Source: Thalassovita aquimarina
GTDB taxonomy: Bacteria; Pseudomonadota; Alphaproteobacteria; Rhodobacterales; Rhodobacteraceae
Assembly: GCF_018219815.1 (NCBI RefSeq)
Contig: NZ_JADMKU010000027.1
Coordinates: 1-39,961 of the forward strand
Length of the DNA stretch: 39,961 nt
Direction: 5' to 3'
Part shown: piece by piece, positions 2,607-38,967 of the stretch
Layout: the number at the start of each line of letters is the position of its first letter
Position numbering within the stretch: position 1 is the stretch's first letter
Notes under the pieces: model-generated
The model's database searches: none
The model's input: only the letters and a program-made list of their open reading frames with translations
Told to the model about the DNA's origin: nothing
Made by a program: the position numbers and the translations under genes

Positions 2607-2616
2607 TGGTATACCA
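2607..2616. promoter_or_regulatory. TGGTATACCA operator, copy 1
   Basis: Perfect 10-bp palindrome with A/T flanks (AATT on the left, TTTT on the right) in the 110-bp gap between GntR regulator 1 and the MR-family gene. Its centre is 73 bp upstream of the ATG at 2685. It is one of six exact copies in the window, all intergenic. The TGGT-AT-ACCA form matches, from memory, the ExuR/UxuR-type operator of the FCD-GntR family, so it is read as the binding site of one or both GntR proteins. Confidence 0.75.
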
Positions 2617-2684
2617 TTTTTGCAGCCACCTTCGGCCCGGCGCTGCGCCGGCCCGATTCAACGCCAGCCGTGCGAGGTCTGCAG

Positions 2685-3854
2685 ATGAAGATCACCAAGG
2701 TCACCAGTCATGTGCTGCAATATGAGTTGCCCGAATTATTGGGCTATTCGCAGCAATATTACGCCAAGCGCAGCGCCCATCTTGTTGAGGTCGAAACCGA
2801 CGACGGCATTACCGGCTGGGGCGAATGTTTCGGCCCCGGCAATATCGCGCTGGCCAACAAGTCGATCGTCGAAAAAGTGATCCAGCCACTGATCCTGGGC
2901 GACGACCCGCTGGACCGCGACGTGATCTGGCACAAGGTCTACAACCTGACCCGCGACCACGGCCAGAAGGGGATGCCGCTGCAGGCGCTGTCAGGAGTAG
3001 ACATCGCGCTGTGGGACATCGCTGGCAAAGTCGCCGGACTGCCGATCCACAAGCTGATCGGCGGCGCCCATCGCAACGAGGTTGGTGTCTATGGTTATGG
3101 CATGATGCTGCGCCCCGAAGACACCGCATCGCTGGCCGCACGCTTCACCGACGAAGCTGCCGCGATCCGCGACATGGGCTTCGAAGCGACCAAGATGAAA
3201 GTCGGTTTCGGACCGAAGGACGACGTGAAACTGGCCGAGGCGGTGCGCCGCGGCGTGGGCGACGACTATCCTTTCATGGTGGATGCAAATCATTGCTACA
3301 CCACCTCGGACGCCTTCTATGTCGGCCGTGCGCTGGAGGAACTGGAGGCCTACTGGTTCGAAGAACCGGTGGCACCGGAGGACCTAGACGGCTACCGCGA
3401 ATTGCGCGCGGGCCTGTCGGTGAACATCGCCGGCGGCGAAGCCGAGTTCAATCGCTGGGGCTGGCGCGCGATCCTGGAAAACCGCGGGCTGGACATCGCC
3501 CAGCCCGAGGTCTGCGCGCTTGGCGGCATATCGGAATATCTGCGTGTGCTGGCGCTGGCCCATGCGCATTTCACGCCGGTGGCCAACCATGTCTGGGGAT
3601 CGGCCATCGCGGTGGCCGCCAACCTGCAATTGCTGGCCGTCATGCCGCCTTTGCCCGGCGGCATGCACCAATGGGAACCCTGGCTGGAATTCGACACCAC
3701 CGACAACAGGTTCCGCGACCATCTTCTGCTGGAACCGCTGGATATTCAGGGACAGGTCAAGCGTTCGGGCGGCAAGGTGGCGATCCCCACCGGTCCCGGA
3801 CTGGGGGTGGAACCGGACCGCGACTTCATCGCCCGCCACGAGATCGACGGCTGA
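2685..3854 (+). CDS. Mandelate racemase/muconate lactonizing family enzyme, D-galactarolactone cycloisomerase-like
   Basis: This 389-residue enolase-superfamily protein has the full mandelate-racemase-type active site: Lys170-x-Lys172 (TKMK), metal ligands Asp200, Glu226 and Glu252, and catalytic His302 in NHVWG. The overall sequence resembles, from memory, the Agrobacterium galactarolactone cycloisomerase. That enzyme opens aldarolactones to a 3-deoxy-2-keto-hexarate in the oxidative uronate pathway. A plain sugar-acid dehydratase (for example mannonate-type) is the alternative. I chose ATG 2685 over the GTG at 2670 because a CGAGG site sits 7 bp before it. It heads the uxaC-uxuB operon and has a TGGTATACCA operator 73 bp upstream. 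Confidence 0.8.
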   Translation: MKITKVTSHVLQYELPELLGYSQQYYAKRSAHLVEVETDDGITGWGECFGPGNIALANKSIVEKVIQPLILGDDPLDRDVIWHKVYNLTRDHGQKGMPLQALSGVDIALWDIAGKVAGLPIHKLIGGAHRNEVGVYGYGMMLRPEDTASLAARFTDEAAAIRDMGFEATKMKVGFGPKDDVKLAEAVRRGVGDDYPFMVDANHCYTTSDAFYVGRALEELEAYWFEEPVAPEDLDGYRELRAGLSVNIAGGEAEFNRWGWRAILENRGLDIAQPEVCALGGISEYLRVLALAHAHFTPVANHVWGSAIAVAANLQLLAVMPPLPGGMHQWEPWLEFDTTDNRFRDHLLLEPLDIQGQVKRSGGKVAIPTGPGLGVEPDRDFIARHEIDG

Positions 3855-3878
3855 GCCAGGACGGATAACGGGGGGGAA

Positions 3879-5285
3879 ATGGCTTTTCTGGATGACAACC
3901 GGCTGCTGCCGGCGGAGCCGTCGCAACGTATCGCGGCGCACGAACTCTATGATGCGGTGCGGGCGTTGCCGCTGGTCTGCCCGCATGGCCACACCGATCC
4001 GCAATGGTTCGCCGAAGATGCGCCCTTCCCCGATCCGGCGCAGCTTTTCGTGATCCCGGATCATTACGTGTTCCGGATGCTGTGTTCGGCCGGAATCGAC
4101 CTGTCCGCGCTCGGCGTGCCGCGGGTTGACGGCGGCAGGACGGAAACCGACAGCCGCAAAATCTGGCGGCTGTTTGCCGATAACTACCACCTGTTCCGCG
4201 GCACCCCCAGCCGGCTGTGGCTGGATCATGCCTTTCAGGACCTGTTCGGGATCGACGAACGGCTGAGCGCAGCCAATGCCGACGCGTATTTCGACCAGAT
4301 CGCAGATTGCCTGTCGCGCCCCGAATTCCGCCCACGCGCGCTGTACGACCGTTTCGGGATTGAGGTGATCTCGACCACCGACAGCCCGCTGGACGATCTG
4401 CGCTGGCACCGACAAATCCGCGACGAAGGCTGGCACGGGCGCGTCATTCCGACCTACCGCCCCGACGCTCTGGTAGATCCCGAATTCGAGGGCTTTGCCG
4501 GAAATGTCGAACGCTTCGCCGACCTGACCGGGGCCGACACCACCAGCTGGCCCGGATATCTTGAAGCCCACCGCATCCGTCGCGCGGCGTTCAAGGCGAT
4601 GGGCGCGACCGCCACCGATCACGGGCATCCCACCGCCCTCACCGCCGATTTGCCACAAGCAGAGGCGGCCACCCTGTTCGACCGGGTGCTGAGCGGCAAG
4701 GCCACTGCGGGCGAAACCGAACTGTTCCGCGCCCAGATGCTGACAGAAATGGCGCGGATGAGCCTCGATGACGGGCTGGTGATGCAATTGCACGCGGGGT
4801 CGCGCCGCAACCATTCGCCGCACGTGATGGCCCGGCATGGCCGCGACAAGGGCTTCGACATTCCCGGCCGCACCGATTACGTAAGCGCGCTGAAACCGCT
4901 GCTCGACGCGGTGGGCATGGAACCGGGTCTGACGCTGATCCTGTTCACACTGGACGAAACCGCCTACGGCCGGGAACTTGCGCCGCTGGCCGGGGCCTAC
5001 CCGTCGCTGAAACTGGGACCGGCGTGGTGGTTCTTCGACAGCTACGAAGGCATGCTGCGCTATCGTGAGATGACTACGGAAACCGCCGGTTTCTACAACA
5101 CGGCGGGTTTCAACGACGACACCCGCGCCTTCTGTTCCATCCCGGCCCGCCATGACGTGGCCCGCCGCGCCGACTGCACCTATCTGGCGCGGCTGGTGAC
5201 GACCGGGCGTCTGGACCTCGACGAGGCGCATGACCTGGCCGGCGAAATGGCCGCCGGGCTGGCGCGGAGGGCCTACAAGCTGTGA
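3879..5285 (+). CDS. uxaC: Uronate isomerase (glucuronate/galacturonate isomerase)
   Basis: The 468-residue protein is a full-length UxaC of the amidohydrolase superfamily. It interconverts D-glucuronate and D-fructuronate, or D-galacturonate and D-tagaturonate, the first step of the isomerase route for hexuronates. The N-terminal metal-site motif is PHGH (His36, His38). Further family segments are RFGIEVISTTDSPLDD, the long central helical insert, LHAGSRRNH and GPAWWFFDS near the C-terminus. The ATG follows a run of G that serves as the ribosome site, 24 bp after the previous stop. The next gene overlaps its stop codon, so translation is probably coupled. Confidence 0.95.
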   Translation: MAFLDDNRLLPAEPSQRIAAHELYDAVRALPLVCPHGHTDPQWFAEDAPFPDPAQLFVIPDHYVFRMLCSAGIDLSALGVPRVDGGRTETDSRKIWRLFADNYHLFRGTPSRLWLDHAFQDLFGIDERLSAANADAYFDQIADCLSRPEFRPRALYDRFGIEVISTTDSPLDDLRWHRQIRDEGWHGRVIPTYRPDALVDPEFEGFAGNVERFADLTGADTTSWPGYLEAHRIRRAAFKAMGATATDHGHPTALTADLPQAEAATLFDRVLSGKATAGETELFRAQMLTEMARMSLDDGLVMQLHAGSRRNHSPHVMARHGRDKGFDIPGRTDYVSALKPLLDAVGMEPGLTLILFTLDETAYGRELAPLAGAYPSLKLGPAWWFFDSYEGMLRYREMTTETAGFYNTAGFNDDTRAFCSIPARHDVARRADCTYLARLVTTGRLDLDEAHDLAGEMAAGLARRAYKL

Positions 5286-6745
5286 ATGATCGGATCCGCC
5301 TTTCCGCCCGCGATCTTCCCCGCGGCGGCAAACGCCCGGTGCCGGGGATCATTCACCTTGGTCTGGGGGCGTTTTTCCGCGCCCATGTGGCGACCTATCT
5401 GGCCGATGCGATCGCTGAAAGCGGAGGCGACTGGGGCGTGATCGGCGCCAGCCTGCAAAGCCCCGCGACCCGTGACAAGCTGGCACCGCAGGACAATGTC
5501 TATATCGCCGTCGAACTGGGGCCCAAAGACCGGGATTACCGGCTGATGGACCTGATTTCCGATGTGGTGGTCGCGCCCGAGGATCCCGGCCACCTGATCG
5601 GGCTGATGGCTGCGCCCGCGATCCGGCTGGTGACGCTGACGGTGACCGAGAAGGGCTATTGCCACGAACCGGCGACGGGGCGGCTGATGACCGATCATCC
5701 CGTTATCGCCCACGACTTCGCCCATCCCGACAGCCCACGCAGCGCGATCGGTTTTCTTGTCTCCGCTCTCGATCAGCGGCGACGAAACGGGCAGCGCCCC
5801 TTCACCATGCTGAGCTGTGACAACCTGCCGGAAAACGGCCGGGTGCTGCGGGGGCTCGTGCTGGAATTCGCGGGCGCCCTCGACCCGGATCTGGCCCGCT
5901 GGATCGAGACGGAAGCGCGGTTTCCCTGCTGCATGGTCGACCGGATCGTGCCGGCCACGACCGAGGACGATATCGCAGCGGTGGTCGAGGCGACCGGACG
6001 GTTGGACCTTGCCCTGGTGATGCACGAACCGTTCCGCCAATGGGTGATCGAGGACGATTTCGTCGATGGTGACCGCCCCAACCTCGCCGCTGCGGGGGCC
6101 GAGATGGTCGCCGATGTCTCCCCATTCGAAGCGATGAAGCTGCGCTGCCTGAACGGCACCCATTCGACATTGGCCTATCTGGGTTACCTTGCCGGTCACG
6201 CCACGATCCACGACGCAGTGTCCGATCCGGTCTTCGAACGGCTGTGCCGGCGGCTTTGGCGGGACGAAATCATCCCGATCCTGATACCGCCGCAGGGCAC
6301 CGACCTGACGGCCTATGCCGAAGCATTGCTGGAACGCTATCGCAATCCGGCAATCCGTCATGCCACTTGGCAGATCGCGATGGACGGATCGCAGAAACTG
6401 CCGCAGCGGATTCTGGGCACGATCGCCGACAACCTGCGGGCGGAACGCCCCTGCCCAGCCCTGACACTAGCTGTGGCGGGGTGGATGAAATACGTTTCGG
6501 GTTACGATGAGGCGGGCCGGGAAATCGACGTGCGAGACCCGCTGGCCGACCGGTTGCGCGGGATATGGCAGGCCCATCCGGATCCCGAAACACGCGCCGA
6601 TGCCTATCTCGCCCAGGGCACGGTGTTCGGCATGCTGGCCGGTCAGCCCGGTTTCCGCGCCGATCTGGCCCGCGCCTGCGCGGAATTGGATATTTATGGC
6701 GCGCGCGGCGCGGCGGAGCGGGTCAGGGGCAGGCCCCTGCCCTAG
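5282..6745 (+). CDS. uxuB: Mannitol-dehydrogenase-family hexuronate reductase (fructuronate/tagaturonate reductase)
   Basis: This 487-residue protein belongs to the polyol-specific long-chain dehydrogenases and has the length of UxuB. It would reduce D-fructuronate to D-mannonate, or D-tagaturonate to D-altronate. The Rossmann start IIHLGLGAFFRAH is at about 23-35. The catalytic KxxxxNGxH segment is present as Lys286, Asn291 and His294. The start is a GTG whose last bases overlap the uxaC stop (GTGA), with GGAGG 11 bp upstream. It follows UxaC directly and supplies the second pathway step. No uxuA is adjacent, and the dehydratase in the window is UxaA, so an altronate-forming role is also possible. 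Its stop shares the palindrome CTAG with the convergent dgoA stop. Confidence 0.9.
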   Translation: MNDRIRLSARDLPRGGKRPVPGIIHLGLGAFFRAHVATYLADAIAESGGDWGVIGASLQSPATRDKLAPQDNVYIAVELGPKDRDYRLMDLISDVVVAPEDPGHLIGLMAAPAIRLVTLTVTEKGYCHEPATGRLMTDHPVIAHDFAHPDSPRSAIGFLVSALDQRRRNGQRPFTMLSCDNLPENGRVLRGLVLEFAGALDPDLARWIETEARFPCCMVDRIVPATTEDDIAAVVEATGRLDLALVMHEPFRQWVIEDDFVDGDRPNLAAAGAEMVADVSPFEAMKLRCLNGTHSTLAYLGYLAGHATIHDAVSDPVFERLCRRLWRDEIIPILIPPQGTDLTAYAEALLERYRNPAIRHATWQIAMDGSQKLPQRILGTIADNLRAERPCPALTLAVAGWMKYVSGYDEAGREIDVRDPLADRLRGIWQAHPDPETRADAYLAQGTVFGMLAGQPGFRADLARACAELDIYGARGAAERVRGRPLP

Positions 6746-7353
6746 TCCTGTTCTCGCAACGCCGCGTCATAGGCGGCGACCATCGCCCGGGCCCTTTCGC
6801 GGACCTGTCCGGCGCTGTCGCCGGGCCGATAGAGCGAGGTTCCGATCCCGAACCCGTTGGCCCCGGCGCGCAGGAAATCCGCGAAATTGTCGGGGCCGAC
6901 ACCGCCCACCATCAACAGCTGCGCCTCGGGCGGCAGCACTGCTCGGATCGCGCCCAGCCCCTTCACCCCCAACAGGAAGGACGGGAATAGCTTCACCCCC
7001 GTCGCCCCGGCCTGCAGCGCGGCGAAACATTCGGTCGGCGTCAGCGCACCGGGAAAGCTCTGCATCCCTAACCGCAGGGTTTCGCCGATGACGGCGGTAT
7101 CGGTGTTGGGCGACACCACCATGCGTCCACCGGCATCGGCCACATGCGCGACCTCATCCGGGATCAGCACGGTGCCCGCGCCGATCAGCGCCTCGCCCGC
7201 CACTTGCGCCATACGGGCGATGCTGTCGAAGGGGCGTGGCGAATTCAGCGGCACCTCGATCCTGTCGATGCCGGACTCGATCAGCGCCGCGGTAATGCTT
7301 TCGGCCTCATCCGGGGTGATGCCGCGCAGGATAGCGATGAGGTTTCGGCTCAT
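6742..7353 (-). CDS. dgoA: 2-dehydro-3-deoxy-6-phosphogalactonate aldolase
   Basis: The 203-residue class I aldolase of the KDPG/KDPGal family splits the phosphorylated 2-keto-3-deoxy acid into pyruvate and glyceraldehyde 3-phosphate. Arg10 (ILRGITPDEA), Glu33 (EVPLNSP) and Schiff-base Lys121 (GVKLFPS) are in place. The opening NLIAILRGITPDEA closely resembles E. coli DgoA rather than Eda. ATG 7353 was chosen over a longer frame because GGAAAGGGG precedes it. It starts 2 bp after the dgoK stop. No eda is visible, so this enzyme may also take KDPG formed by the KDG kinase at 15983. Confidence 0.92.
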   Translation of the reverse strand: MSRNLIAILRGITPDEAESITAALIESGIDRIEVPLNSPRPFDSIARMAQVAGEALIGAGTVLIPDEVAHVADAGGRMVVSPNTDTAVIGETLRLGMQSFPGALTPTECFAALQAGATGVKLFPSFLLGVKGLGAIRAVLPPEAQLLMVGGVGPDNFADFLRAGANGFGIGTSLYRPGDSAGQVRERARAMVAAYDAALREQD

Positions 7354-7355
7354 GA

Positions 7356-8258
7356 TCAGCCCCTTTCCAATGCGTCGCGCGCGGCACAAAGCCCGCGCAG
7401 GGTTGCGGTTTCGGCGTCGATGATACGCGCGGATATCCCGGTCAGGTCAAATGCCTTGCGATAAAGATCGGCGATAGCCCCCCCGCCGATCACCGCCACC
7501 GCACCGGTCAGAGCATCGCGCCCCATCGCGGCGAATTCGGCCCCGACCAGCAATCCCGACAGCCGCGCCCGCGCCACGCCAGGGGGCACATCACGCAACA
7601 ACCCGGCGGCACGGATCGCGAAAAGCGACCGCGCCATCGCCGCGGCATCGTCCCGCGCCGCTGCAAAGCCCGCGGCGAAGGCATCGTCGTTCCATAGCTC
7701 GTCCGGCATCGAATGGCGCAGCACCGACTGGCCGGAGAGCAGCGCGAAAAGCTCGCCCGTCATGAAGGTCTGGAATCCCGCGACCCCGCCCTGCGCCACC
7801 CGGACCCACTTGGAATGGGTACCGGGCAAGCAGACCAGACCGGAAAATCCCGGATCTTCCAGCAACAGGCCGGCGATCTGGGTTTCCTCGCCCCGCATCA
7901 CGTCGGGCGGGGCCTGCTGACTGAGCCCCGGCAGAATCCGCATGTCGAGGCGCGGATCGCGCACCGGGGCGGCCACCGCCGCCGACGGATCACCCGGCGC
8001 GGCCGGGGTGGCGACATAGGGGGCTTCGATCCAGCCCTGGCGGGCGCCCACCATGCCGCAGGCCAGAACCTGAACCCGCTCGGCCCCCTGTATCCAGGGG
8101 CCGATCAGGTCGAGCAGCGCCGGTTCGAACGCCTCGGGCGCCAGCCGCCCCATGCCCTGATCAGAATGGGCCTCGTTCGTCGCCTCATGCCTGTGCATCC
8201 GCCAGACCCGTAGGTGGCTGGTGCCCCAATCGACAGCGATCCAGAACGCACCTGACAT
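7356..8258 (-). CDS. dgoK: 2-dehydro-3-deoxygalactonokinase
   Basis: This 300-residue sugar-acid kinase phosphorylates 2-keto-3-deoxy-galactonate at O6. The N-terminal phosphate loop WIAVDWGTSHLRVW (residues 6-19) and the segments ACGMVGARQGW, VMRGEETQ, LPGTHSKWV, MTGELFALL and SGLLVGAEF follow E. coli DgoK in order. It sits between the dioxovalerate dehydrogenase and dgoA with gaps of 9 and 2 bp, so the three are one operon. Together with dgoA it forms the De Ley-Doudoroff branch for galactonate. The partner galactonate dehydratase could be either of the two enolase-superfamily proteins in the window. Confidence 0.93.
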   Translation of the reverse strand: MSGAFWIAVDWGTSHLRVWRMHRHEATNEAHSDQGMGRLAPEAFEPALLDLIGPWIQGAERVQVLACGMVGARQGWIEAPYVATPAAPGDPSAAVAAPVRDPRLDMRILPGLSQQAPPDVMRGEETQIAGLLLEDPGFSGLVCLPGTHSKWVRVAQGGVAGFQTFMTGELFALLSGQSVLRHSMPDELWNDDAFAAGFAAARDDAAAMARSLFAIRAAGLLRDVPPGVARARLSGLLVGAEFAAMGRDALTGAVAVIGGGAIADLYRKAFDLTGISARIIDAETATLRGLCAARDALERG

Positions 8259-8267
8259 GCCCGCCCC

Positions 8268-9782
8268 TTACTTCAAATCGTCGGGCAGCAGCGCGTCGGG
8301 CATGTTCTGATAGCTGACCGGACGCAGGAAACGGCGGATCGACAGCGTGCCCACCGACGTATGGCCGAAATTGGTAGAGGCCGGATAAGGCCCGCCATGA
8401 ACCATCGCGTCGCAGACCTCGACCCCGGTCGGATAACCGTTGGCCAGAACCCGCCCGGCCTTGCGTTCCAGCACCGGCATCAGTTTCCGCCCCAGCCCGG
8501 TATCGCCCTCGTCGAGATGCAGAGTACAGGTCAGCTGCCCCTGAAGGTTTTGGGCGACCTGCATCAACTCGTCTTCATCGGCGACCCGCACGATCAGGCC
8601 AAGCGGGCCGAACACCTCTTCGCCAAGCGCCTCGTTGGCCAGCCATTCCTTGCCGGTGGTGGCAAACAGATAGGGAGTGGCGTTGCGCAGATCGCAGACC
8701 GAGGTCAGCACTTCCTGCACCCCCTTGCTGCCCGCCACCCGGTCGCGTCCGGCGCGGAAGGCCGAGGCGATGCCGTCGGTCAGCATTGTCTGCGCCCCGA
8801 TCGGTTCCAGCGCCTTAGCAGCCGCGTCGATGAAGGCATCCGCCTGCGGACCGTCAATCACTACCGAAATGCCGGGATTGGTGCAGAACTGCCCCGCCCC
8901 CAAGGTCAGCGAGCCGGCCCAGTCGGCGGCGATATCCGCTCCGCGCTCGGAGAGGGCCTCCGGCAGGATGAACATCGGATTGACCGATCCCAGTTCGCCG
9001 AAGAACGGGATCGGGGTTTCCCGCTGGGCGCAGAGATCGAACAGAGCCCGTCCCCCGCCCAAGCTGCCGGTAAAGCCGACCGCGTTGATCAGAGGGTGCT
9101 GCACCAGTGCCTGTCCGACATCACGCTTGCCGCCCTGAATCAGCGAAAAGACACCGGGATGCACGCCGCATTTCTTGATCGCGGCATTGATGGCCTCGGC
9201 GACGATTTCGCCGGTGCCGGGATGGGCGCTGTGGCCCTTGACCACTACCGGGCAGCCGGCAGCCAGCGCGGCGGCGGTGTCGCCGCCAGCAGTCGAAAAG
9301 GCCAACGGGAAGTTCGATGCGCCGAACACCGCCACCGGGCCGATCGGGCGCTGCACCATCTTCAGGTCCGGGCGCGGCAACGGCTGCCGGTCGGGCAGTG
9401 CGACATCATGCCGCCGATCGAGGTAATCGCCCTTCAAGATGTGGTCCGCGAACAGCCGCAACTGGCCGGTGGTGCGGCCGCGTTCGCCTTCCAGGCGGGC
9501 TTCGGGCAGGCCGCTTTCCTGCGTGCCGATTTCGGTGATCAGGGCGCCGCGCGCCTCGATCTCGTCAGCGATGGTGTTCAGGAAGGCCGCGCGCTCGGCG
9601 CGAGTGCTGTATCCGTAGGCCCAGAAAGCCTTTTCCGCCGCCTCGCAGGCTTCGCCCACCAATGCCGGGGTGCCGATGGAGAATGCGTGCGGTTCTCCGT
9701 GCGCCGGTTCCGAAGAAAACGTCGCGTCGCCCTCCACCCAGTTGCCCGCAATCAGGTGTTTGCCATGCGGTTTAAAAGTCAT
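8268..9782 (-). CDS. 2,5-dioxovalerate (2-oxoglutarate semialdehyde) dehydrogenase, NADP-type aldehyde dehydrogenase
   Basis: The 504-residue aldehyde dehydrogenase has Asn157 (GASNFPL), Lys182 (VVKGHSAHPGT), catalytic Glu263 (GELGSVNP) and nucleophile Cys300 (GQFCTNPG). This N-terminal HLIAGNWVEG arrangement and the SHP-type cofactor loop are typical of 2-oxoglutarate semialdehyde dehydrogenases of pentose and aldarate pathways. It would yield 2-oxoglutarate. ATG 9782 is preferred over the upstream start because GGGAGGG lies just before it. It heads the minus-strand operon with dgoK and dgoA and is the exit step for the pentonate dehydratases encoded at 16927, 18114 and 27566. A TGGTATACCA operator lies 94 bp upstream. 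Confidence 0.87.
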   Translation of the reverse strand: MTFKPHGKHLIAGNWVEGDATFSSEPAHGEPHAFSIGTPALVGEACEAAEKAFWAYGYSTRAERAAFLNTIADEIEARGALITEIGTQESGLPEARLEGERGRTTGQLRLFADHILKGDYLDRRHDVALPDRQPLPRPDLKMVQRPIGPVAVFGASNFPLAFSTAGGDTAAALAAGCPVVVKGHSAHPGTGEIVAEAINAAIKKCGVHPGVFSLIQGGKRDVGQALVQHPLINAVGFTGSLGGGRALFDLCAQRETPIPFFGELGSVNPMFILPEALSERGADIAADWAGSLTLGAGQFCTNPGISVVIDGPQADAFIDAAAKALEPIGAQTMLTDGIASAFRAGRDRVAGSKGVQEVLTSVCDLRNATPYLFATTGKEWLANEALGEEVFGPLGLIVRVADEDELMQVAQNLQGQLTCTLHLDEGDTGLGRKLMPVLERKAGRVLANGYPTGVEVCDAMVHGGPYPASTNFGHTSVGTLSIRRFLRPVSYQNMPDALLPDDLK

Positions 9783-10166
9783 GTTTCGCCCTCCCATCCA
9801 TTTTCCAAGCCAGCTCGATTTTCACTTGCTCGATTTGACATTTAGCACAATTAGCTTGACTCGACTCAATTTGGTATACCATTTTTTTACAGGATTGTAG
9901 GGCAATCTGCTGCGCCGTTGGGAGGCGGCGGGCGGCACGGGGGAAAATTGCGATCGTCGCGGCTAGTGACCCGGATCGGAGAGCTCACAACCGGTCGGTG
10001 ACAGGAAGTCAGGATATGCGCTTGAGTGCCATGGCTTGGGGGGAAATTTCACAACTGGCCTCCCCCTGATGCTCAAGTGCGACACCGTGATTAGCCGTTA
10101 CGCCGGCATTCCCCCATGGGAAGGCCTGCAGTGAATTTTACGAATTCAACACCACAGGAGGAGAAG
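9783..10166. promoter_or_regulatory. Divergent promoter region between dioxovalerate dehydrogenase and ABC importer operons
   Basis: This 384-bp gap holds no gene. It is AT-rich near 9830-9895 and carries operator copy 2. A TTGACA hexamer at 9835-9840 on the plus strand could be a -35 element, but no convincing -10 follows at the right spacing, so promoter positions are not assigned. The stretch 9900-10150 shows no recognisable site beyond the ribosome site AGGAGGA at 10156-10162. Its length suggests a long leader for the importer mRNA. Confidence 0.5.
9872..9881. promoter_or_regulatory. TGGTATACCA operator, copy 2
   Basis: Exact palindrome with flanks AATT on the left and TTTTTT on the right, nearly the same extended sequence as copy 1. 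It is 94 bp from the start of the dioxovalerate dehydrogenase and 290 bp from the start of the ABC binding protein. It could control both divergent operons, but the distance favours the minus-strand dgo/dehydrogenase operon. Confidence 0.75.
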
Positions 10167-11171: not shown

Positions 11172-11205
11172 GCCGCGTGTGAAATGAAAGGCAAGGGCAA
11201 GGCAT

Positions 11206-12681: not shown

Positions 12682-12683
12682 CC

Positions 12684-13619: not shown

Positions 13620-13622
13620 GCC

Positions 13623-14570: not shown

Positions 14571-14579
14571 GAGGCCCCA

Positions 14580-15497: not shown

Positions 15498-15506
15498 GGC
15501 CCCACG

Positions 15507-29347: not shown

Positions 29348-29364
29348 ACCGCCGGAGACCGGAC

Positions 29365-31983: not shown

Positions 31984-32007
31984 ACTTCAGTTCTCCCTGC
32001 CTGCCGG

Positions 32008-32736
32008 TCAGCCTGCGGCCCAGCCGCCATCGATGACATGTGCCTGACCTGTCGTGAAGCCGCTTTCATCGGACCCTAGATAAAGCGCCAGCGCGGCGAT
32101 TTCCTGCGGCGTACCGATCCGGCCCATCGGTTGGCGCTCGATGAAGGCCTTCATCGCTGCCTCGTAATCCCCCGTGGCCCGCAGCCGTTCATGAAGCGAC
32201 GGACTGTCCACCGTACCAGGACAGATCGCGTTGCAGCGGATGCCCTTGGTGACGTAATCGACCGCGACCGACTTGGTCATCCCGATTACCGCCGCCTTGG
32301 TGGTGCCGTAGACGAAGCGGTTGGGCGCGGCCAGGATCGAGGACGCGACCGAGGCGATATTGACGATCGACCCCTTGCCACGCTCCAGCATCCCCGGCAG
32401 CGCCGCCTGGATCGAATGGACCATCGCCCGCACGTTCAGGTTCACGGCGAAATCCAGTTCCTCGTCGGTGGCCTCCAGCACGGTACCGCCATGCACGATC
32501 CCGGCGCAGTTCACCAAAATGTCGGGCGCAGCCTCGGTGACGGCACCCTGCAGCGCCGCCTTGTCGGTCACGTCCAGCGCGAAGCATTCCGCGCCCGTAA
32601 GCCCCACCAGCAGATCACCGTTGAGGTCGGTGGCAGTCACCTGCGCCCCTTCAGCCAAATAGGCCTCGGCGATGGCGCGTCCGATCCCCTGCCCGGCCGC
32701 CGTGACGAACGCGCGTTTTCCAGCCAGCCTGCTCAT
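32008..32736 (-). CDS. SDR, 2-keto-3-deoxy-L-fuconate dehydrogenase-like
   Basis: The 242-residue SDR has TAAGQGIG (12-19), Asp37 (NAD preference), NCAG, catalytic Ser129, Tyr143 and Lys147. RCNAICPGTVDSPSL and RQPMGRIGTPQEIAAL match, from memory, 2-keto-3-deoxy-L-fuconate dehydrogenases and the related DHRS6 group. It would oxidise a 2-keto-3-deoxy acid at C4 to a 2,4-diketo acid. The FAH-family gene at 39711 resembles the hydrolase that would cleave that product. ATG 32736 overlaps the upstream TGA by the ATGA arrangement. Confidence 0.82.
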   Translation of the reverse strand: MSRLAGKRAFVTAAGQGIGRAIAEAYLAEGAQVTATDLNGDLLVGLTGAECFALDVTDKAALQGAVTEAAPDILVNCAGIVHGGTVLEATDEELDFAVNLNVRAMVHSIQAALPGMLERGKGSIVNIASVASSILAAPNRFVYGTTKAAVIGMTKSVAVDYVTKGIRCNAICPGTVDSPSLHERLRATGDYEAAMKAFIERQPMGRIGTPQEIAALALYLGSDESGFTTGQAHVIDGGWAAG

Positions 32737-33617
32737 TGGCCCAGCACTTCTGCGAAATAGTCGACCATCTGCGGCACCATGATGTCGCCCTTGCCGTCGG
32801 CGATCGCCGATTTCAGCGCGTTATCCGCGGCGACGGACATGCGCGACGGCGCGCCCAGATCCTGCGACATGGTGTTGTAATACCCTACGTCCTTGGACGC
32901 ATTGGCGACCGAGAAAGCGAGGTCGATCTGCTGATCGGTGGCATAGTTCTTGATGAAATCCATCATGCCCGAACGCAGCGGCCCGGCCGACATCACGTCA
33001 TAAAGCTTCTGCCGTTCGATCCCGGCGCGATCGGCCATGGCGAAGGCTTCGGACATTGCGCAGGCGGTGGTCATGGCGAAGAAGTTGTTGATCAGCTTGA
33101 TCGTGTGGCCCGATCCCAGGTCGCCCAGGTGGAACACGTTTTCGCCCAGCACGTCGAGTTCCGGCTTGACCTTGTCAAAGGCGGCCTTGTCACCCGAGCA
33201 CATGATATTCAGCAGCCCGTCGACCGCATGCGCCGGGGTGCGACCCAGCGGTGCATCGAGATAGATCGCGCCCTTTGCCGCCATGTCGGCGCCGATCTTC
33301 TTGGTAGATCCGGGCAGCGAGGTACCGAAATCGATCACGATCTGGCCTTCGCGCACACCGGCCAGAACGCCGTCATCGCCATAGACACGGGATTCGACAT
33401 GCTCCGAGGTGCCCATGCAGAACATCACGATGTCGGACTTTTCCGCCACTTCGCAGGCATTGGCCGCCTCGGTCGCGCCACGGTCAAGCGCCGCCTCGAC
33501 CCCGGTGCGGTCACGGTGGCCCAGCACGGTCACCGCGTAGCCCGCCTTCTGCAGGCATTCGACCATCGCCGCGCCCATCAGGCCGAGGCCGATAAATCCA
33601 ATCTTTGGCTTGCTCAT
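32733..33617 (-). CDS. 3-hydroxyisobutyrate-dehydrogenase-family reductase, second copy (LtnD/GarR-like)
   Basis: This 294-residue protein has GFIGLGLMG (7-15) and catalytic Lys174 in SGHTIKLINNF. As in the paralogue at 22875, the substrate loop is DAPLGRTP (121-128) instead of DAPVSGG. It could oxidise a short aldonate such as L-threonate or reduce tartronate semialdehyde. Two adjacent ATGs (33620, 33617) can start it; GGGAG precedes both. It follows uxaA after 63 bp that contain a GC-rich stem-loop. Confidence 0.85.
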   Translation of the reverse strand: MSKPKIGFIGLGLMGAAMVECLQKAGYAVTVLGHRDRTGVEAALDRGATEAANACEVAEKSDIVMFCMGTSEHVESRVYGDDGVLAGVREGQIVIDFGTSLPGSTKKIGADMAAKGAIYLDAPLGRTPAHAVDGLLNIMCSGDKAAFDKVKPELDVLGENVFHLGDLGSGHTIKLINNFFAMTTACAMSEAFAMADRAGIERQKLYDVMSAGPLRSGMMDFIKNYATDQQIDLAFSVANASKDVGYYNTMSQDLGAPSRMSVAADNALKSAIADGKGDIMVPQMVDYFAEVLGQ

Positions 33618-33653
33618 CATTCCAACTCCCTGTCTGGTTAAAGTCATTCGGCC

Positions 33654-33670
33654 GCCGCGGGATGCGCGGC
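33654..33670 (-). other. Intercistronic GC stem-loop between uxaA and the GarR-like gene
   Basis: GCCGCG at 33654-33659 pairs with CGCGGC at 33665-33670 around a 5-nt loop. No T-run follows on the transcribed strand, so it is more likely an mRNA-processing or attenuation element than a terminator. Confidence 0.35.
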
Positions 33671-33680
33671 AGACGGGACA

Positions 33681-35168
33681 TCACATCACCGCGCCGATCT
33701 GCCAGGGCACGAATTCATAGTCGCCCAGGCCCTGCGCCTCGGATTTCGATTGCTTGCCCGACGCCACGTCGAGCAGCAGCTGGAAAATCTCGCGCCCGAC
33801 CTCCTCGACGCTGGCGCCCTCGGTGATGATCCGGCCCGCGTTGACGTCCATGTCCTCGGTCATTCGGTTGAACATCTCGGAATTGGTGGCGATCTTGATC
33901 GACGGTGACGGTTTCGCACCAAAGGCCGAACCGCGCCCGGTGGTGAAGGCCACGAGGTTGCAGCCCGAAGCGATCTGCCCGGTCACGGACGCCGGATCGT
34001 AGCCAGGGCTGTCCATGAAGGTGAAGCCCTTCGCGGTCACCGGTTCGGCATATTTATAAACACCGGTCAGCGGCGTGGTGCCGCCCTTGGCCGCCGCGCC
34101 CAGCGATTTTTCCAGGATCGTGGTCAGCCCGCCCTTCTTGTTTCCCGGGCTGGGATTGTTATCCATGCTGCCGCCGTTGCGGGCTGTGTAATCTTCCCAC
34201 CAGTGGATCAGCCCGATCAGTTTCTCGCCGACCTCGCGGTTGACGGCACGGGCGGTCAGCAGGTGTTCGGCGCCATAGATTTCGGGCGTTTCGGCCAGAA
34301 CCCCGGTGCCCCCCTGCGCCACCAGCATGTCGCAGGCATAGCCCAATGCCGGGTTGGCGGTGATCCCCGACCACGCATCCGAACCACCGCATTGCAACGC
34401 CACCGTCAGTTCCGAAGCCGGGCACGGTTCGCGTTCGAACTCGTTGACCAGCGGCAGCATCGCCTCGACCTTCTTGATGCCCAGCTCGATGGTCTTGCGC
34501 AGCCCGCCGACGTCCTGGATGTTCATGGTCTGAAACAGCGGGCCGGGAGTGATACCCATCGCTTCGACCAGCCAGTCGATCTGGTTGGTTTCACAGCCCA
34601 GGCCAGCCATCAGCACGCCGCCCACGTTCGGGTTACGGGCATACCCCCACATCACCCGCTGCAGCGCTTCGAAGCCTTCGCCATTGGTTGCCATGGCGCA
34701 GCCGGTGCCGTGGTGGAAGGCGGCCACGCCGTCAACATTGGGATAGGCGGCCAGTTTTTCTGCGGTAAAGTGATCGGCGATCATCCGCGCGGCGGTGGCG
34801 GAACAGTTCACGCTGGCCATGACCGCGATGTAGTTGCGTGTGCCCACCTTGCCGTTGGGGCGGCGATAGCCCTGGAAGGTCGCCGGTTCCTGCGGCTCCG
34901 GCGGACGCAGGTTGGTGCCGAATTCATATTCGGCATCCACGTTGCGGAATTCGACGTTGTGGGTGTGTACGTGATCGCCCACGGCGATATCGCTGGCGGC
35001 ATAGCCGATGATCTGGGCGTATTTACGCACCGGATCTCCCTTGGGGATCGGGGCGGTGGCCATCTTGTGACCGCGGGGGATCACGGCGGTGGCACCTTCG
35101 TCACCGACTGCCAGTTGCGATATCGCCGTAACGACATTGTCGGCGGGGGAAAGACGAACGGTTTTCAA
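33681..35168 (-). CDS. uxaA: Altronate dehydratase
   Basis: This 495-residue protein has the same length as E. coli UxaA. It has an N-terminal SAF domain (about residues 1-90, GHKMA...GDHVHTHN) and the large UxaA domain with GTGCAMA, GLGCETNQ, LQCGGSDAWSGITANP, NPSPGNKKGG and TTGRGSAFG. It dehydrates D-altronate to KDG, or possibly a related aldonate. The TTG at 35168 is chosen as start: AAAGGTGA precedes it, homologues begin there, and no in-frame ATG fits. It lies in the TRAP operon, 158 bp after dctM. Confidence 0.9.
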   Translation of the reverse strand: MKTVRLSPADNVVTAISQLAVGDEGATAVIPRGHKMATAPIPKGDPVRKYAQIIGYAASDIAVGDHVHTHNVEFRNVDAEYEFGTNLRPPEPQEPATFQGYRRPNGKVGTRNYIAVMASVNCSATAARMIADHFTAEKLAAYPNVDGVAAFHHGTGCAMATNGEGFEALQRVMWGYARNPNVGGVLMAGLGCETNQIDWLVEAMGITPGPLFQTMNIQDVGGLRKTIELGIKKVEAMLPLVNEFEREPCPASELTVALQCGGSDAWSGITANPALGYACDMLVAQGGTGVLAETPEIYGAEHLLTARAVNREVGEKLIGLIHWWEDYTARNGGSMDNNPSPGNKKGGLTTILEKSLGAAAKGGTTPLTGVYKYAEPVTAKGFTFMDSPGYDPASVTGQIASGCNLVAFTTGRGSAFGAKPSPSIKIATNSEMFNRMTEDMDVNAGRIITEGASVEEVGREIFQLLLDVASGKQSKSEAQGLGDYEFVPWQIGAVM

Positions 35169-35190
35169 ATCATCACCTTTTCTTTGGGGC

Positions 35191-35209
35191 CCGCCCCCTG
35201 CCGGGGCGG
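35191..35209. other. GC-rich stem-loop upstream of uxaA
   Basis: CCGCCCC pairs with GGGGCGG around a 5-nt loop, about 25 bp upstream of the uxaA TTG. On the uxaA strand the stem is followed by GCCCCAAAG, without a T-run, so it is not a clear terminator. It could tune uxaA translation or mRNA ends between dctM and uxaA. Confidence 0.35.
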
Positions 35210-35311
35210 ACGTCTTTTCGTTCAGTTGCGGATCGTCTCCGGTCGGCCAAGTCCGGACACCGCCCATACCGGGCCCACACAGCGGCCGGCACGGGGGCAT
35301 TCCGTTTTGTC

Positions 35312-35348
35312 CATGATATCAACACCCTACAGGAATATTGATATCATG
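35312..35348. repeat. Inverted repeat with two TGATATCA palindromes at the end of dctM
   Basis: CATGATATCAA (35312-35322) and TTGATATCATG (35338-35348) form 11-bp inverted arms with a 15-bp spacer. Each arm contains the palindrome TGATATCA, centres 25 bp apart. One arm overlaps the last codons of dctM. It could be a two-site operator for uxaA or a weak AT-rich hairpin. Confidence 0.45.
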
Positions 35349-36922
35349 TTCGGCCAGATCAGCAGCACCGACAGCGCCAAAAGCTGGATGCCGATGAACG
35401 GCAGGAAGCCCTTGAAGATGTCGGTCAGGGTAATATGAGGCGGCGCCACCGATTTCAGGTAGAACGCAGCCGGTCCGAAGGGTGGTGACAGGAAACTGAC
35501 CTGCATATTCATGCAGAATACCACCCCAAACCAGATCGCCACGTGGCGCGGGTTCAGTTCGCCGATGAAGCCCAGTTCCTCGACCGGCAGACGCAGCACG
35601 ATTGGCAGAAACACCGGCATCACCAGAAGAACGATACCGACCCAGTCCATGAAGGCGCCGAGGAACAGGAAGATCACCATCATCACCAGGATGATGCCCA
35701 TCGTCGGCAATTCCGCCCCCACGATCGTATTGGCGATATAAGTCGGGCCGCCGGCGATCGTATAAGCCCCGGCCAGCGCCGTCGCGCCGATCGTCACCCA
35801 GATGATCGTACCGGTCGCACGCAGCGTCCGCTTGAGGCTGTCCCACAGCAGATGGAAATTCATCTCGCCGCGCATGGTGGCGATCACGCCAACCGCGATT
35901 ACGCCCATGCCGGCGGCCTCGGTGATGCCGGTGATGCCGCCGTAGATCGACCCCAGCACCACGCCGATCACCACGATCGGCGCCACCAGGCCCTTGCCCA
36001 TCTGCCAGCCAATCCTGATGCGTTCACGCCCCGCGATGAAGAAGAGAACGCCCAGGAACAGCGCCAGAGCGATCCCGAATTTCAACACGAAATCGGGGGT
36101 CCCGAAGGCGATTGAATCGACGCCTTCCAACGCGGCGTTCTGCCCGGTCAGGGTAAAGAACAGCGCCCGCAGGAAAAGTACCGACGCGAAACCAGAGGCG
36201 ACCAGCAACAGGAATGTGCCGAACAGCGCGGCCTTTTCGCGTCCTTCTGGATCACCCGGTTTCTTTTCCGGCAGCGGCGCCTTTTCCGGATTCAGCTGGG
36301 TGGTGACGATGATGTAGATGATAAAGAAGCTCGCCAGCATGAAGCCGGGCAGGAAGCTTGCCGTGAACAGCGCCTTGATCGAGGTATCGGTGATCAATCC
36401 GTAGATGATCAGAACAATCGACGGCGGGATCATCGTCCCCAGCGAACCCGAGGCGCAGATCGTGCCGATGGCCAGGTTCTGACTGTAGCCAAGCCGCAGC
36501 ATCTGCGGCAACGCGATCAGCCCCAGCAGGACGACTTCGCCGCCGATGATGCCCGACATCGCCGCCATGATCACCGCCATGATCGAGGTCACGATGGCGA
36601 TACCGCCACGGGTCCGTGCAAGCCAGATGTTTAGCGAATTGTACATCTCGCCCGCGATGCCGGAGCGTTCCAGCAAATTGGCCATGAATATGAATAACGG
36701 GATGGATATCAGCACATAATCCGTAAGCAGGCCATAGATGCGCTGCGCCAGGATATTGAGCGGCCCCGCCCCGAAATTTCCGAACAGGAAGTCCGGTCCG
36801 AATTTCATCAGCAGGACGCCGGCCGCCAGCACCGCCGAAGCGAAGCCAAGCGGCATGCCGATCGCCAGCAGGAGCAGCATGGCAAGCAGCAGGATCAGAG
36901 AGATGGTTCCAATGTCAAACAT
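35327..36922 (-). CDS. dctM: TRAP transporter large permease subunit (DctM-like, enlarged)
   Basis: This 531-residue membrane protein of the IT superfamily forms the sodium-coupled translocation channel of a TRAP importer. Family landmarks are GMPLGFA near the start, SIPLFIFMANLLERSG, SGIIGGEVVLLGLIALP and GSLGTMIPPSIVLIIYG. It is about 100 residues longer than typical DctM because of an insertion in the middle (about residues 210-330) with a charged stretch and extra helices. It starts 3 bp after dctQ. The C-terminus overlaps an inverted repeat. Confidence 0.92.
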   Translation of the reverse strand: MFDIGTISLILLLAMLLLLAIGMPLGFASAVLAAGVLLMKFGPDFLFGNFGAGPLNILAQRIYGLLTDYVLISIPLFIFMANLLERSGIAGEMYNSLNIWLARTRGGIAIVTSIMAVIMAAMSGIIGGEVVLLGLIALPQMLRLGYSQNLAIGTICASGSLGTMIPPSIVLIIYGLITDTSIKALFTASFLPGFMLASFFIIYIIVTTQLNPEKAPLPEKKPGDPEGREKAALFGTFLLLVASGFASVLFLRALFFTLTGQNAALEGVDSIAFGTPDFVLKFGIALALFLGVLFFIAGRERIRIGWQMGKGLVAPIVVIGVVLGSIYGGITGITEAAGMGVIAVGVIATMRGEMNFHLLWDSLKRTLRATGTIIWVTIGATALAGAYTIAGGPTYIANTIVGAELPTMGIILVMMVIFLFLGAFMDWVGIVLLVMPVFLPIVLRLPVEELGFIGELNPRHVAIWFGVVFCMNMQVSFLSPPFGPAAFYLKSVAPPHITLTDIFKGFLPFIGIQLLALSVLLIWPNMISIFL

Positions 36923-36925
36923 GTA

Positions 36926-37726
36926 TTACGACCCCTTCGCCGTGTCGTCCTGAAGATCTGCGAGATCGTGTTTCAGTTCTTCGATTTCCGCCTCGTCAAC
37001 GGGCGCGTGATGTTCCGGGGCCTTGTTCCAATCCGCGATCAGGTTGGCCAACGCCTGGATCGACACCAGCAGAATGACCAGCAGAACCATCGGCTTCATC
37101 GTGGCCGGGATCGGCGGATCGAATGCGGTGCCGAAGGTTTCCCACCGCAGGATTTTCGCCTGCGCCTCGTTCAGACCGCCCCAGATCATCGAGATCGTGA
37201 AGGCCCAGATCAGCGCCACCGACACCGTGTCCGACAGTTTCTGCGCCCAGCCCGGCAGGATATCGTAAAGCAGGTAGATACGGATGTGGCTCCGTTGCTG
37301 CATGGCATAAAGCCCGGAAAGCAAGAAGATGAACCCAGCCATCCACAGCGAAAGCTCATTCGCCCAAAGTGTCGGTTTTTCAAAGACGTAGCGGACGACC
37401 ACCTCATAGAACATCACCGACACCAGCAACAGGATCAGCATCATCGCGACCCGTCCCAGGAAGAGGCTTACATTATCCAGCAGCCCCTCTGAATCTGTCT
37501 CCAACGCGGAAACGGTAACACTGCGCACCCCCAGAACGATCGCAACGATCACGACGAGCGCCGCCGCGTAGTCGGCGAGGCCCGCCGGAGCATAGGTTGA
37601 GGTGATCGCATCATTCGCCCATCCGAAAGCCAGGATGAATTTCGGAAAGTTCCAGACCACGTATGCCATTGCTGCCACGAAGACAGCCGGCCAAAGCATT
37701 TCTCGATATGTTTCGTTAGCCCGCAC
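36926..37726 (-). CDS. dctQ: TRAP transporter small permease subunit (DctQ-like, enlarged)
   Basis: A 266-residue membrane protein. The four-helix DctQ core is in the C-terminal two thirds (VMFYEVVVRYVFEKPTLWANELSLW, then QQRSHIRIYLLYDILP). Two extra N-terminal helices precede it, and a charged tail of about 40 residues follows, so it is longer than the usual 160-180. The GTG at 37726 is a tentative start after a GGGGGG run; Met at 37699 is another choice. An earlier GTG at 37777 is rejected because it falls inside the dctP-dctQ stem-loop. Confidence 0.8.
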   Translation of the reverse strand: MRANETYREMLWPAVFVAAMAYVVWNFPKFILAFGWANDAITSTYAPAGLADYAAALVVIVAIVLGVRSVTVSALETDSEGLLDNVSLFLGRVAMMLILLLVSVMFYEVVVRYVFEKPTLWANELSLWMAGFIFLLSGLYAMQQRSHIRIYLLYDILPGWAQKLSDTVSVALIWAFTISMIWGGLNEAQAKILRWETFGTAFDPPIPATMKPMVLLVILLVSIQALANLIADWNKAPEHHAPVDEAEIEELKHDLADLQDDTAKGS

Positions 37727-37766
37727 CAACAAAGCCCCCCGATGTTTCTTGGTTATACGAGAAAAC

Positions 37767-37795
37767 AGGCGGACCACCCCGAAAGCGGCCCGCCT
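37767..37795 (-). terminator. Stem-loop between dctP and dctQ (attenuator)
   Basis: On the minus strand a 9-bp stem with one G-U pair (37787-37795 with 37767-37775) encloses an 11-nt loop. It is followed by GTTTTC, a short T-run. It lies 16 bp after the dctP stop, where TRAP operons often reduce expression of the membrane subunits relative to the binding protein. A partial terminator is the likely role. Confidence 0.55.
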
Positions 37796-37811
37796 GCCTG
37801 ACCGTCAGGTC

Positions 37812-38816
37812 TTATTCCGCGACCAGGCCCAGTTGGCTCAGGAACGCGGTATGGCTGTCGACGAGCGCACGCGCTTCAGGGGTCTTGTCAGCCCAGCCCT
37901 GCCATGCACCCTGCGCGGCCTTGCGGAAGGCAGCACGGTCCTCGGGCGACCAGTCGTGGATGGTCACGCCGGCAGCTTCCAGTGCCGCCTTGGCTTTCAG
38001 ATTTTCCACGTCCATCGCCATGGTCAGCTGGAACGACAGTTTCTGCATCGCCACGTCGAGGATGCGGCGATTCTGTTCGCTCAGACCTTCATAGGCGTCG
38101 ATGCGGCAGGCCAGGTGGTCCGACGGCATCGAATGGAAGCCGGGATAGGTGGCGTGCTTGACGATGTCATACAGACCCAAGCCAACATTGTTGGCCAGCG
38201 TCGACGCGTCGGCGCCGTCGATGATACCGGTTTCAAGCGCGGTGAAGATTTCGTTGAAGTCCATCACGATGGGGCTTGCGCCCATCGCCGCGAAGATTTC
38301 GGTTTCCAGGCCCGGCGGAGAACGGAATTTCCAGTCTTTCAGGTCTTCGGGGCCGCGCAGCGGCTTGGACGAGGACATCGTTTCCTGGCCGTTGATCCAC
38401 CAGCCGATCAGCTTCATGTTGTACTGGCCATAAAGCGCGTCGGCCGCTTCGAAGCCACCGCCGTGATACAGCCAGGAATACTGCTGCCACGGGGTATCAT
38501 AGCCGCCCATGATGTCGCCGACGAATTGGAACGCGGGGTTCTTGCCGGTCTGGTAGGCACCGCCGGTCATATCGCAATCCAGAATCCCCGACGACGCGGC
38601 GTCGAAGGTTTCCACCGACTTCACGACCGAAGACGAAAAGAACATTTCGATCTTCAGGTCGCCGCCCGACATCGTTTCGATATCGTCGATGAAGCCCTGG
38701 ATCTGCTGTCCCGAAATGGTTTCCGGTGCATAGTGTGTTTGAATCCGCAGAGTATCAGCGGTTGCGGGCACGGCAATCGTTGTTGCAAGCGCCGCTGCGA
38801 GAATGGTCGATTTCAT
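37812..38816 (-). CDS. dctP: TRAP transporter substrate-binding protein (DctP-like)
   Basis: The 334-residue periplasmic protein has a Sec signal peptide (residues 1-20, cut after ATA). The family Arg that binds the ligand carboxylate is Arg165 in WKFRSPPG. A carboxylate ligand such as a uronate or aldonate fits the family and the co-transcribed UxaA. ATG 38816 follows GGGAGGAAA. It is the first gene of the operon; two TGGTATACCA operators lie upstream at 122 and 146 bp. Confidence 0.92.
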   Translation of the reverse strand: MKSTILAAALATTIAVPATADTLRIQTHYAPETISGQQIQGFIDDIETMSGGDLKIEMFFSSSVVKSVETFDAASSGILDCDMTGGAYQTGKNPAFQFVGDIMGGYDTPWQQYSWLYHGGGFEAADALYGQYNMKLIGWWINGQETMSSSKPLRGPEDLKDWKFRSPPGLETEIFAAMGASPIVMDFNEIFTALETGIIDGADASTLANNVGLGLYDIVKHATYPGFHSMPSDHLACRIDAYEGLSEQNRRILDVAMQKLSFQLTMAMDVENLKAKAALEAAGVTIHDWSPEDRAAFRKAAQGAWQGWADKTPEARALVDSHTAFLSQLGLVAE

Positions 38817-38933
38817 TTGGACATTTCCTCCCTACGACTGTCCCCGGCAAGTCGGTCAAAAGGTCTCCTCCACCCTGTCCGAACAACCGGTTTTCAACGA
38901 ACGCCGACCCAAATCGAATCCGCGCTCGTTTTT

Positions 38934-38943
38934 TGGTATACCA
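38934..38943. promoter_or_regulatory. TGGTATACCA operator, copy 5
   Basis: Exact palindrome with five T on the left but a less symmetric right flank (TTCACC). It is 122 bp from the dctP start and 24 bp centre-to-centre from copy 6. It lies in the 217-bp divergent region between dctP and GntR regulator 2. Confidence 0.75.
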
Positions 38944-38957
38944 TTCACCTCGCCATT

Positions 38958-38967
38958 TGGTATACCA
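38958..38967. promoter_or_regulatory. TGGTATACCA operator, copy 6
   Basis: Exact palindrome flanked by CATT on the left and AAAA on the right. It lies 71 bp upstream of the GntR regulator 2 start, the same distance as copy 1 from its gene. Together with copy 5 it makes a tandem site, which suggests cooperative binding and autoregulation of the regulator. Confidence 0.78.

Follow-up and report, generated by a model that had tools for sequence, protein, structure and literature searches.

A palindrome shared by sugar-acid promoters in Thalassovita aquimarina points to a regulon under duplicated GntR/FCD regulators

Operators of the FadR subfamily of GntR regulators follow an A/T-rich palindromic consensus with TKGT/ACMA boxes, in which GT and AC are separated by two nucleotides in the UxuR motif and by three in a group comprising ExuR, DgoR, FadR, GlcC, LldR and PdhR (Suvorova 2015, PMC4494728). 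For UxuR and ExuR, autorepression, cross-regulation and heterodimers have been reported (PMC9369180). In Rhodobacteraceae, a 'novel GntR-family regulator (UxuR)' was predicted in bins 08 and 18 (Leyn 2017, PMC5507952), and the L-gluconate pathway of Paracoccus 43P (LgnH/LgnI/LgnE) runs through a dehydrogenase, a reductase, a dehydratase, a 2-keto-3-deoxygalactonate (KDGal) kinase and a 2-keto-3-deoxy-6-phosphogalactonate (KDPGal) aldolase (PMC12632266); here and below these papers are cited for their accessible text. We analyzed a contig of Thalassovita aquimarina (NZ_JADMKU010000027.1, 39,961 nucleotides, termed the window), which is the entire contig C19 of a genome assembled into 67 contigs with 4,329,792 bases. 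It carries sugar-acid genes, two GntR-type regulator genes, gntR1 and gntR2, and six copies of the palindrome TGGTATACCA. Sequence comparison, namely the sites themselves, their rarity in the genome, the conserved promoters and the co-occurrence with the regulator, makes it very probable that this palindrome is the operator of one regulon under a clade of GntR/FCD (FadR-subfamily) regulators, represented here by GntR1 and GntR2.

The window contains exactly six copies, at the coordinates reported in an initial annotation of this DNA (Table 1), and a scan of the window allowing one mismatch found no others. The initial annotation had put the chance expectation below one copy per 40 kb; base composition predicts 0.015 copies in the window, and 100 dinucleotide shuffles yielded none. 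All six copies are intergenic, as it had also stated, and the gene calls leave 5.8% of the window intergenic. The palindrome is flanked by A/T-rich sequence. After the start codons of sdr and ilvD had been moved to the ATGs at 22071 and 27566, the distances from site to start were 53 bp for the enolase-family dehydratase, 74 bp for the aldehyde dehydrogenase, 69 bp for the IdnD-like dehydrogenase, 83 bp for the SDR, 48 bp for the IlvD-like dehydratase, and 66 and 90 bp for gntR2. These 48-90 bp agree to within 2 bp with the earlier range of 50-95 bp, from which the ABC importer (234 bp) and dctP (117/141 bp) had been excepted, and sites fall in three divergent regions, at 9872, 21978 and the 38934/38958 pair. 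A chance repeat of no regulatory meaning, which the roughly one copy seen in each genome lacking the regulator might suggest, is extremely improbable in view of six intergenic copies where none is expected and of the promoter conservation described below; it was rejected on the shuffles.

A genome-wide motif scan, as proposed in the initial annotation, detected nine exact copies in 4.33 Mb (reversed-pattern control: one). The three outside the window (C37:4067, C65:91 and C65:2973) would extend the regulon to four-carbon acid-sugar, tartrate-type and PhyH genes. The C37 site precedes a PhyH oxygenase gene; its contig, 5.5 kb long, further carries genes for an NAD-binding-2 protein, a DUF1537-type kinase and a class II aldolase, presumably of threonate/erythronate type. 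One C65 site precedes an Ldh_2 and isocitrate/isopropylmalate-dehydrogenase-family pair, which at a guess is tartrate-dehydrogenase-like, and the other a DUF1537-type kinase and PdxA-family pair. When one mismatch was allowed in the WW-flanked pattern WWTGGTATACCAWW, a single place was added (C1:116503; control two). It lies just inside the gene for a monomeric isocitrate dehydrogenase (L037:4004, open reading frame (ORF) 3979-6201) and was not counted as a further site.

Positions 9-2400 of C65 and 1-3857 of the window align to one continuous stretch of the relative G148, in which about 1.8 kb separate the two aligned parts. The order in this stretch is Ldh_2, site, hyi-like ORF, aminotransferase-like ORF, 2-hydroxyacid dehydrogenase, HpcH, gntR1, site and dehydratase, the hyi-like and aminotransferase-like ORFs having been named by eye. 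Judged by this gene order, the operon ending in gntR1 probably has C65:91 as its operator, and eight of the nine genome sites would lie in one chromosomal region; directly upstream of our gntR1, no site was found within 300 bp. G148 has a site at the orthologous promoter for eight of the nine sites, all except that on C37; among these are L137:4341, at the promoter orthologous to 2607, and two sites in the divergent promoter matching 9872 (L136). From the same synteny, a single short assembly gap seems to separate the left edges of the window (1-92) and of C65 (1-90), and it would be expected to contain the hyi-like and aminotransferase-like genes. A genome-wide search for the hyi-like family turned up a single copy, on C18; the contig ends had none.

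To compare site numbers with the regulator, 199 genomes of the same family (own genome included, thus 198 relatives) were used, and the relatives were grouped by their bit score with GntR1, 200 bits or more being taken as a strong homologue. At E <=1e-30, GntR1 matched 50 of the 199 genomes and GntR2 matched 52. The 27 relatives with a strong homologue carry 5.78 sites on average, and 26 of them have at least three. Means were 1.83 sites at 140-200 bits (12 genomes, three with at least three sites), 0.60 at 100-140 bits (10 genomes, none) and 0.84 below 100 bits (149 genomes, 12). The reversed-pattern control gave means of 1.63, 1.00, 1.80 and 1.73 from the strongest to the weakest group, and the group means set the background at about one copy per genome. 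At least three sites were thus found in 26/27 strong-homologue relatives vs 15/171 others (Mann-Whitney p 3e-17, control 0.24; because the genomes are related, these p values are not strict).

The same intergenic regions were then compared in related Rhodobacteraceae, as the initial annotation had suggested, and proved to be conserved. For the IlvD-like promoter, loci were picked by protein and not by site, taking the first 46 places listed, down to 69% identity (the own locus, the best loci of 29 relatives and 16 further ones), and a site was counted if it lay no more than 400 bp upstream; at L254, 273 bp of upstream sequence were present. An exact site was found in 22 of 23 genomes with a strong regulator vs one of 21 without (Fisher p 4e-10), the one being G020, which has a 171-bit homologue. 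Three of the 20 siteless genomes (G013, G112 and G092) have weaker homologues of 118-160 bits. The second IlvD copy of G192 (L257), excluded from the 21, has no site. At the regulator's own promoter, a site is present within 300 bp upstream of the match for 23 of the 27 best homologues, and 17 regulator promoters carry an exact pair, 15 of them spaced 54-57 bp. In G148, the gntR1 copy likewise has no site within 300 bp and the gntR2 copy has a 24-bp pair.

Regions around 147 of the 154 sites held by 26 relatives were fetched and compared with a reference set made of our genome's site-linked genes and their neighbours; the set includes the isocitrate dehydrogenase protein of C1:116503, which was the best match of no fetched gene. 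The start of a reference-matching gene lies within 330 bp of 107 of the 147 sites, a count that leans towards the reading it supports since the set was drawn from our own site-linked genes, and no site lies inside such a gene. The commonest genes by sites are dctP, gntR, IlvD, SDR and IdnD. IdnD-type (15) and SDR-type (16) promoters with the site were aligned, from regions fetched because they bear it. Ten further genes near sites included UxuA, a RuBisCO-like protein and aminotransferases. In G175 (L128:2042-2074), a site pair 23 bp apart precedes a RuBisCO-like gene followed by a DUF1537-type kinase gene, which suggests a further acid-sugar branch of the regulon.

Outside the family, a homologue at E <=1e-45 was found in one of 241 genomes of the class (G325, 44%), which has one site about 2.3 kb from it. 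Scanned with GntR1 alone, named genomes yielded five distant relatives. In Loktanella salsilacus, a 45-kb plasmid stretch carries five exact sites: before IlvD, between an SDR and an L-idonate dehydrogenase, before a 2-hydroxyacid dehydrogenase, between TRAP and gntR, and before an L-threonate dehydrogenase. A 42-kb stretch of Marivivens has one site, 5' of its gntR. In a 45-kb plasmid stretch of Roseinatronobacter (NZ_CP121115.1, L266), an 87% identical IlvD orthologue has a LacI gene as its neighbour and the palindrome is absent, as if the regulator differed.

Several observations, besides the relatedness of the genomes, weigh against the proposed regulon. The 12 relatives with at least three sites and no homologue above 100 bits include G058 with five and G123 with seven; four genomes (G032, G097, G162 and G173) were matched at E 1e-30 by GntR2 alone, with 109-120 bits, and counted as lacking a homologue, and G097 among them has four sites. 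Three class genomes (G223, G332 and G413, genus g224, family f26) carry six to seven copies without a GntR1 homologue at E 1e-45, where perhaps another GntR protein uses the same word; some other genomes of the class sample hold three to five. Conversely, G079 has a strong homologue and just two sites, G124 has a strong regulator and no site at the IlvD-like promoter, and the regulators of G081, G079 and G188 have no site within 300 bp. In the fetched regions, 40 of the 147 sites lack a reference-matching gene start within 330 bp, and some sites stand by genes that are not sugar-acid-like (a ClpA-like ATPase, a 4Fe-4S protein and a glutathionylspermidine synthase).

The sites might belong to another regulator, for example one of 13 other FCD proteins, with the co-occurrence arising from linkage in a shared catabolic island. 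The genome encodes 15 FCD proteins, one of them about 2.6 kb from C65:2973, and in many relatives the sites cluster around the regulator's own locus. However, the other 13 share no more than 37% identity with GntR1 or GntR2 in the aligned region, sites occur on other contigs too, in our genome and in those of relatives, and 20 of 21 IlvD-like orthologues without the strong regulator are siteless, which makes this explanation quite improbable. Rarity in the genome, promoter conservation and co-occurrence with GntR support the proposal of the initial annotation of a single regulon, here for hexuronate, aldonate and other sugar-acid genes.

The promoter layout bears on the direction of control. 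IlvD promoters from our genome and 22 relatives were aligned, leaving out G192 (sites 210 and 303 bp out) and G124 (none). Of the 23, 19 have T at 7 bp and 17 have T at 6 bp before the site, most have TTGCAT directly 5' of the palindrome, and A and T (18/23 each) occupy the second and last places of the hexamer after a 17-bp spacer; the operator would therefore fill the promoter spacer. SDR promoters show TTGCA 13-17 bp before the site, so that the -10 would fall over the palindrome, and gntR promoters TCGACA 13-18 bp before it. These predicted elements are an after-the-fact reading of conserved columns, which also counts against the proposal, and the layout fits a repressor blocking polymerase. 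With the site within or next to the apparent core promoter, the default state is probably repression. Some FCD proteins activate, and the sign of regulation is not given by sequence alone; activation from the same sites is nevertheless unlikely, since a dimer bound at the positions seen in the IlvD and SDR alignments, between the apparent promoter hexamers or across the apparent -10, would stand in the way of polymerase. In relatives with the 54-57 bp pair, each site is about 53-100 bp from the nearer gene of the regulator-dctP divergon. Sites near their own genes have been linked to independent action and a constant inter-site distance to co-operative action on both operons (Suvorova 2015, PMC4494728); either may apply to this divergon, the near-constant spacing pointing to co-operative action.

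Under the proposed repression, a dimer would occupy TGGTATACCA with its A/T-rich flanks until a sugar acid or one of its breakdown products entered the FCD pocket and set it free. The genes under control would serve the uptake (TRAP, ABC) and degradation of hexuronates, aldonates, idonate/pentonate-type and four-carbon acids, with the regulator gene usually among them.

GntR1 and GntR2 both exceed the Pfam cut-offs for an N-terminal GntR helix-turn-helix and a C-terminal FCD domain. They are 48% identical and have the same recognition helix, with identity over SRTPMREAIRILAKEGLL. Among 33 sequences compared, S41, R42, T43, P44, E47 and A48 of this helix are present in all and R46 in 32. D129, H133, H177 and H199, which we take to be the Asp/His metal-ligand set of the FCD pocket, are invariant (33/33). 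The arginine at GntR1 position 64, by family analogy probably in the wing, is missing in two of the 33, GntR2 and G148b (F and M). The tree places GntR1 with G148a and G188 (99/95) and GntR2, on a longer stem, with G148b (100/99); its deeper forks have weak support. G148 alone among the 198 relatives has two members at >=190 bits.

We tentatively suggest, as a real possibility that falls short of an even chance, a lineage-specific duplication that left two regulators reading one operator and sensing different ligands, so that the promoters would integrate two sugar-acid signals, as an independent counterpart of UxuR/ExuR. GntR1 would have retained the original DNA contacts and come to lie last in the 2-hydroxyacid dehydrogenase/aldolase operon. 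GntR2 would have taken the usual place beside the TRAP transporter, behind a close operator pair, and lost the wing arginine; the signals might be integrated through competition or mixed dimers. It is somewhat unlikely that only GntR1, which belongs to the main clade, reads the sites, GntR2 having drifted to another operator or merely modulating GntR1. GntR2 and its G148 counterpart do form a separate clade, are the only sequences without arginine 64 and share G in place of K30, whereas the identity over SRTPMREAIRILAKEGLL and the pair of exact sites before gntR2, as in most single-copy regulators, speak for a common operator.

The genes of the locus were assigned to families with Pfam and NCBIfam (Table 1). 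Among ten window proteins, the IlvD-like protein alone exceeded NCBIfam cut-offs, with two subfamily models (for the aldehyde dehydrogenase, this refers to the best 25 of 39 matches); for the Zn dehydrogenase, the L-idonate 5-dehydrogenase model scored highest, under its cut-off. Substrate names beyond family level, for the locus and for the enzymes at outside sites, are therefore to be taken as provisional. An M24 peptidase gene and AzlC/AzlD-family genes (24749-26931) lie within the sugar-acid locus without a near site (576 bp from 27508), and AzlC adjoins IlvD in several relatives.

Table 1. Predicted operator sites and genes of the window.
Feature	Coordinates	Strand	Remarks
2-hydroxyacid dehydrogenase + HpcH/HpaI aldolase	93..1839	+	Pfam; 5' of gntR1, same direction; gene order as in G148
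gntR1, GntR/FCD regulator, member of conserved regulator clade	1903..2574	+	Pfam GntR + FCD; tree; homologues track site
Operator palindrome TGGTATACCA (predicted)	2607..2616	.	53 bp 5' of GTG, enolase-family dehydratase/uxaC/uxuB-like gene run
Enolase-family dehydratase, UxaC-family uronate isomerase, mannitol-dehydrogenase-family (UxuB-like) reductase	2670..6745	+	Pfam, NCBIfam
KDPG/KHG-type aldolase, 2-keto-3-deoxygalactonokinase family (DGOK), aldehyde dehydrogenase	6742..9797	-	Pfam
Operator palindrome (predicted)	9872..9881	.	between aldehyde dehydrogenase/dgoK/aldolase (-) and sugar ABC importer (+)
Sugar ABC importer (binding protein, ATPase, two permeases), SMP-30 lactonase, DUF2938	10116..15986	+	Pfam
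PfkB (KdgK-like) kinase, FAA hydrolase, DHDPS-family protein, enolase-family dehydratase, LysE, IdnD-like Zn dehydrogenase	15983..21908	-	Pfam, NCBIfam
Operator palindrome (predicted)	21978..21987	.	between IdnD-like Zn dehydrogenase (-) and SDR (+)
SDR, LtnD-like dehydrogenase, PhyH oxygenase	22071..24736	+	Pfam
Operator palindrome (predicted)	27508..27517	.	48 bp 5' of IlvD/EDD-like dehydratase
IlvD/EDD-like dehydratase + SDR	27566..30102	+	Pfam; NCBIfam PRK13017 998.6 bits, cut-off 684
EamA, NAD epimerase, SDR, LtnD-like dehydrogenase, GarD/altronate-dehydratase family, TRAP transporter DctM-DctQ-DctP	30118..38816	-	Pfam
Operator palindrome (predicted), first of pair 24 bp apart	38934..38943	.	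between dctP (-) and gntR2 (+)
Operator palindrome (predicted), second of pair	38958..38967	.	66 bp 5' of gntR2
gntR2, paralogue of gntR1 (48% identical)	39034..39684	+	Pfam; beside dctP, as single regulator in most relatives fetched

Compared with described operators, TGGTATACCA matches the FadR-subfamily consensus in its TKGT/ACMA boxes and A/T-rich flanks and is predicted to be bound accordingly, and GGTATACC has two bases between GT and AC, the UxuR-type spacing. Of the likeness to ExuR/UxuR operators seen in the initial annotation, the UxuR part holds for the spacing; ExuR belongs to the 3-nt group, and an ExuR-type motif was rejected on this ground. By NCBIfam, GntR1 and GntR2 are neither: the UxuR model NF007588 gave 43.1 and 27.7 bits (cut-off 442) and the ExuR model NF008571 45.8 and 24.4 bits (cut-off 396), so that orthology to both was rejected. 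The operators of PdhR, LldR, DgoR and GlcC share TGGT/ACCA-type half-sites but, as described, have one base more between GT and AC than the window sites. By position, the target set is UxuR-like at site 2607, which precedes UxaC and mannitol-dehydrogenase-family genes.

A GntR-type 'UxuR' over UxaC genes and an ABC importer has already been predicted for Rhodobacteraceae, with co-regulation of UxaC-type glucuronate genes and an ABC transporter as in the window; compared by its description, that prediction differs in that the accessible text names neither a motif nor any TRAP, IlvD/IdnD, tartrate or four-carbon targets (Leyn 2017, PMC5507952). In titles and abstract starts of literature listings we found no account of the wider regulon, which may be in print, as subscription papers, RegPrecise and supplements were mostly outside reach; the papers listed for the palindrome word dealt with primers, viruses and taxonomy. 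The steps described for Paracoccus 43P resemble in order the IdnD-like/SDR/IlvD-like core with DgoK and aldolase, but its regulator LgnR belongs to the IclR family (PMC12632266). UxuR/ExuR of E. coli and other Gammaproteobacteria are likewise a GntR-family paralogue pair over hexuronate genes; the window differs in that its targets extend to IlvD/IdnD-type and four-carbon acid genes and that GntR1 and GntR2, of all FCD proteins in the genome, are most closely related to one another.

Taken together, the regulon appears real, well supported by comparison and ordinary in kind, and its duplicated regulator is the most interesting point. Regulator, operator and targets are hereby proposed for a sugar-acid regulon in 27 sampled relatives of the same family and in the window genome, which places dehydratases and dehydrogenases whose substrates are unsettled in a single control unit. 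If both paralogues read the palindrome, they would be, besides UxuR/ExuR, a second natural case of duplicated repressors dividing one operator.

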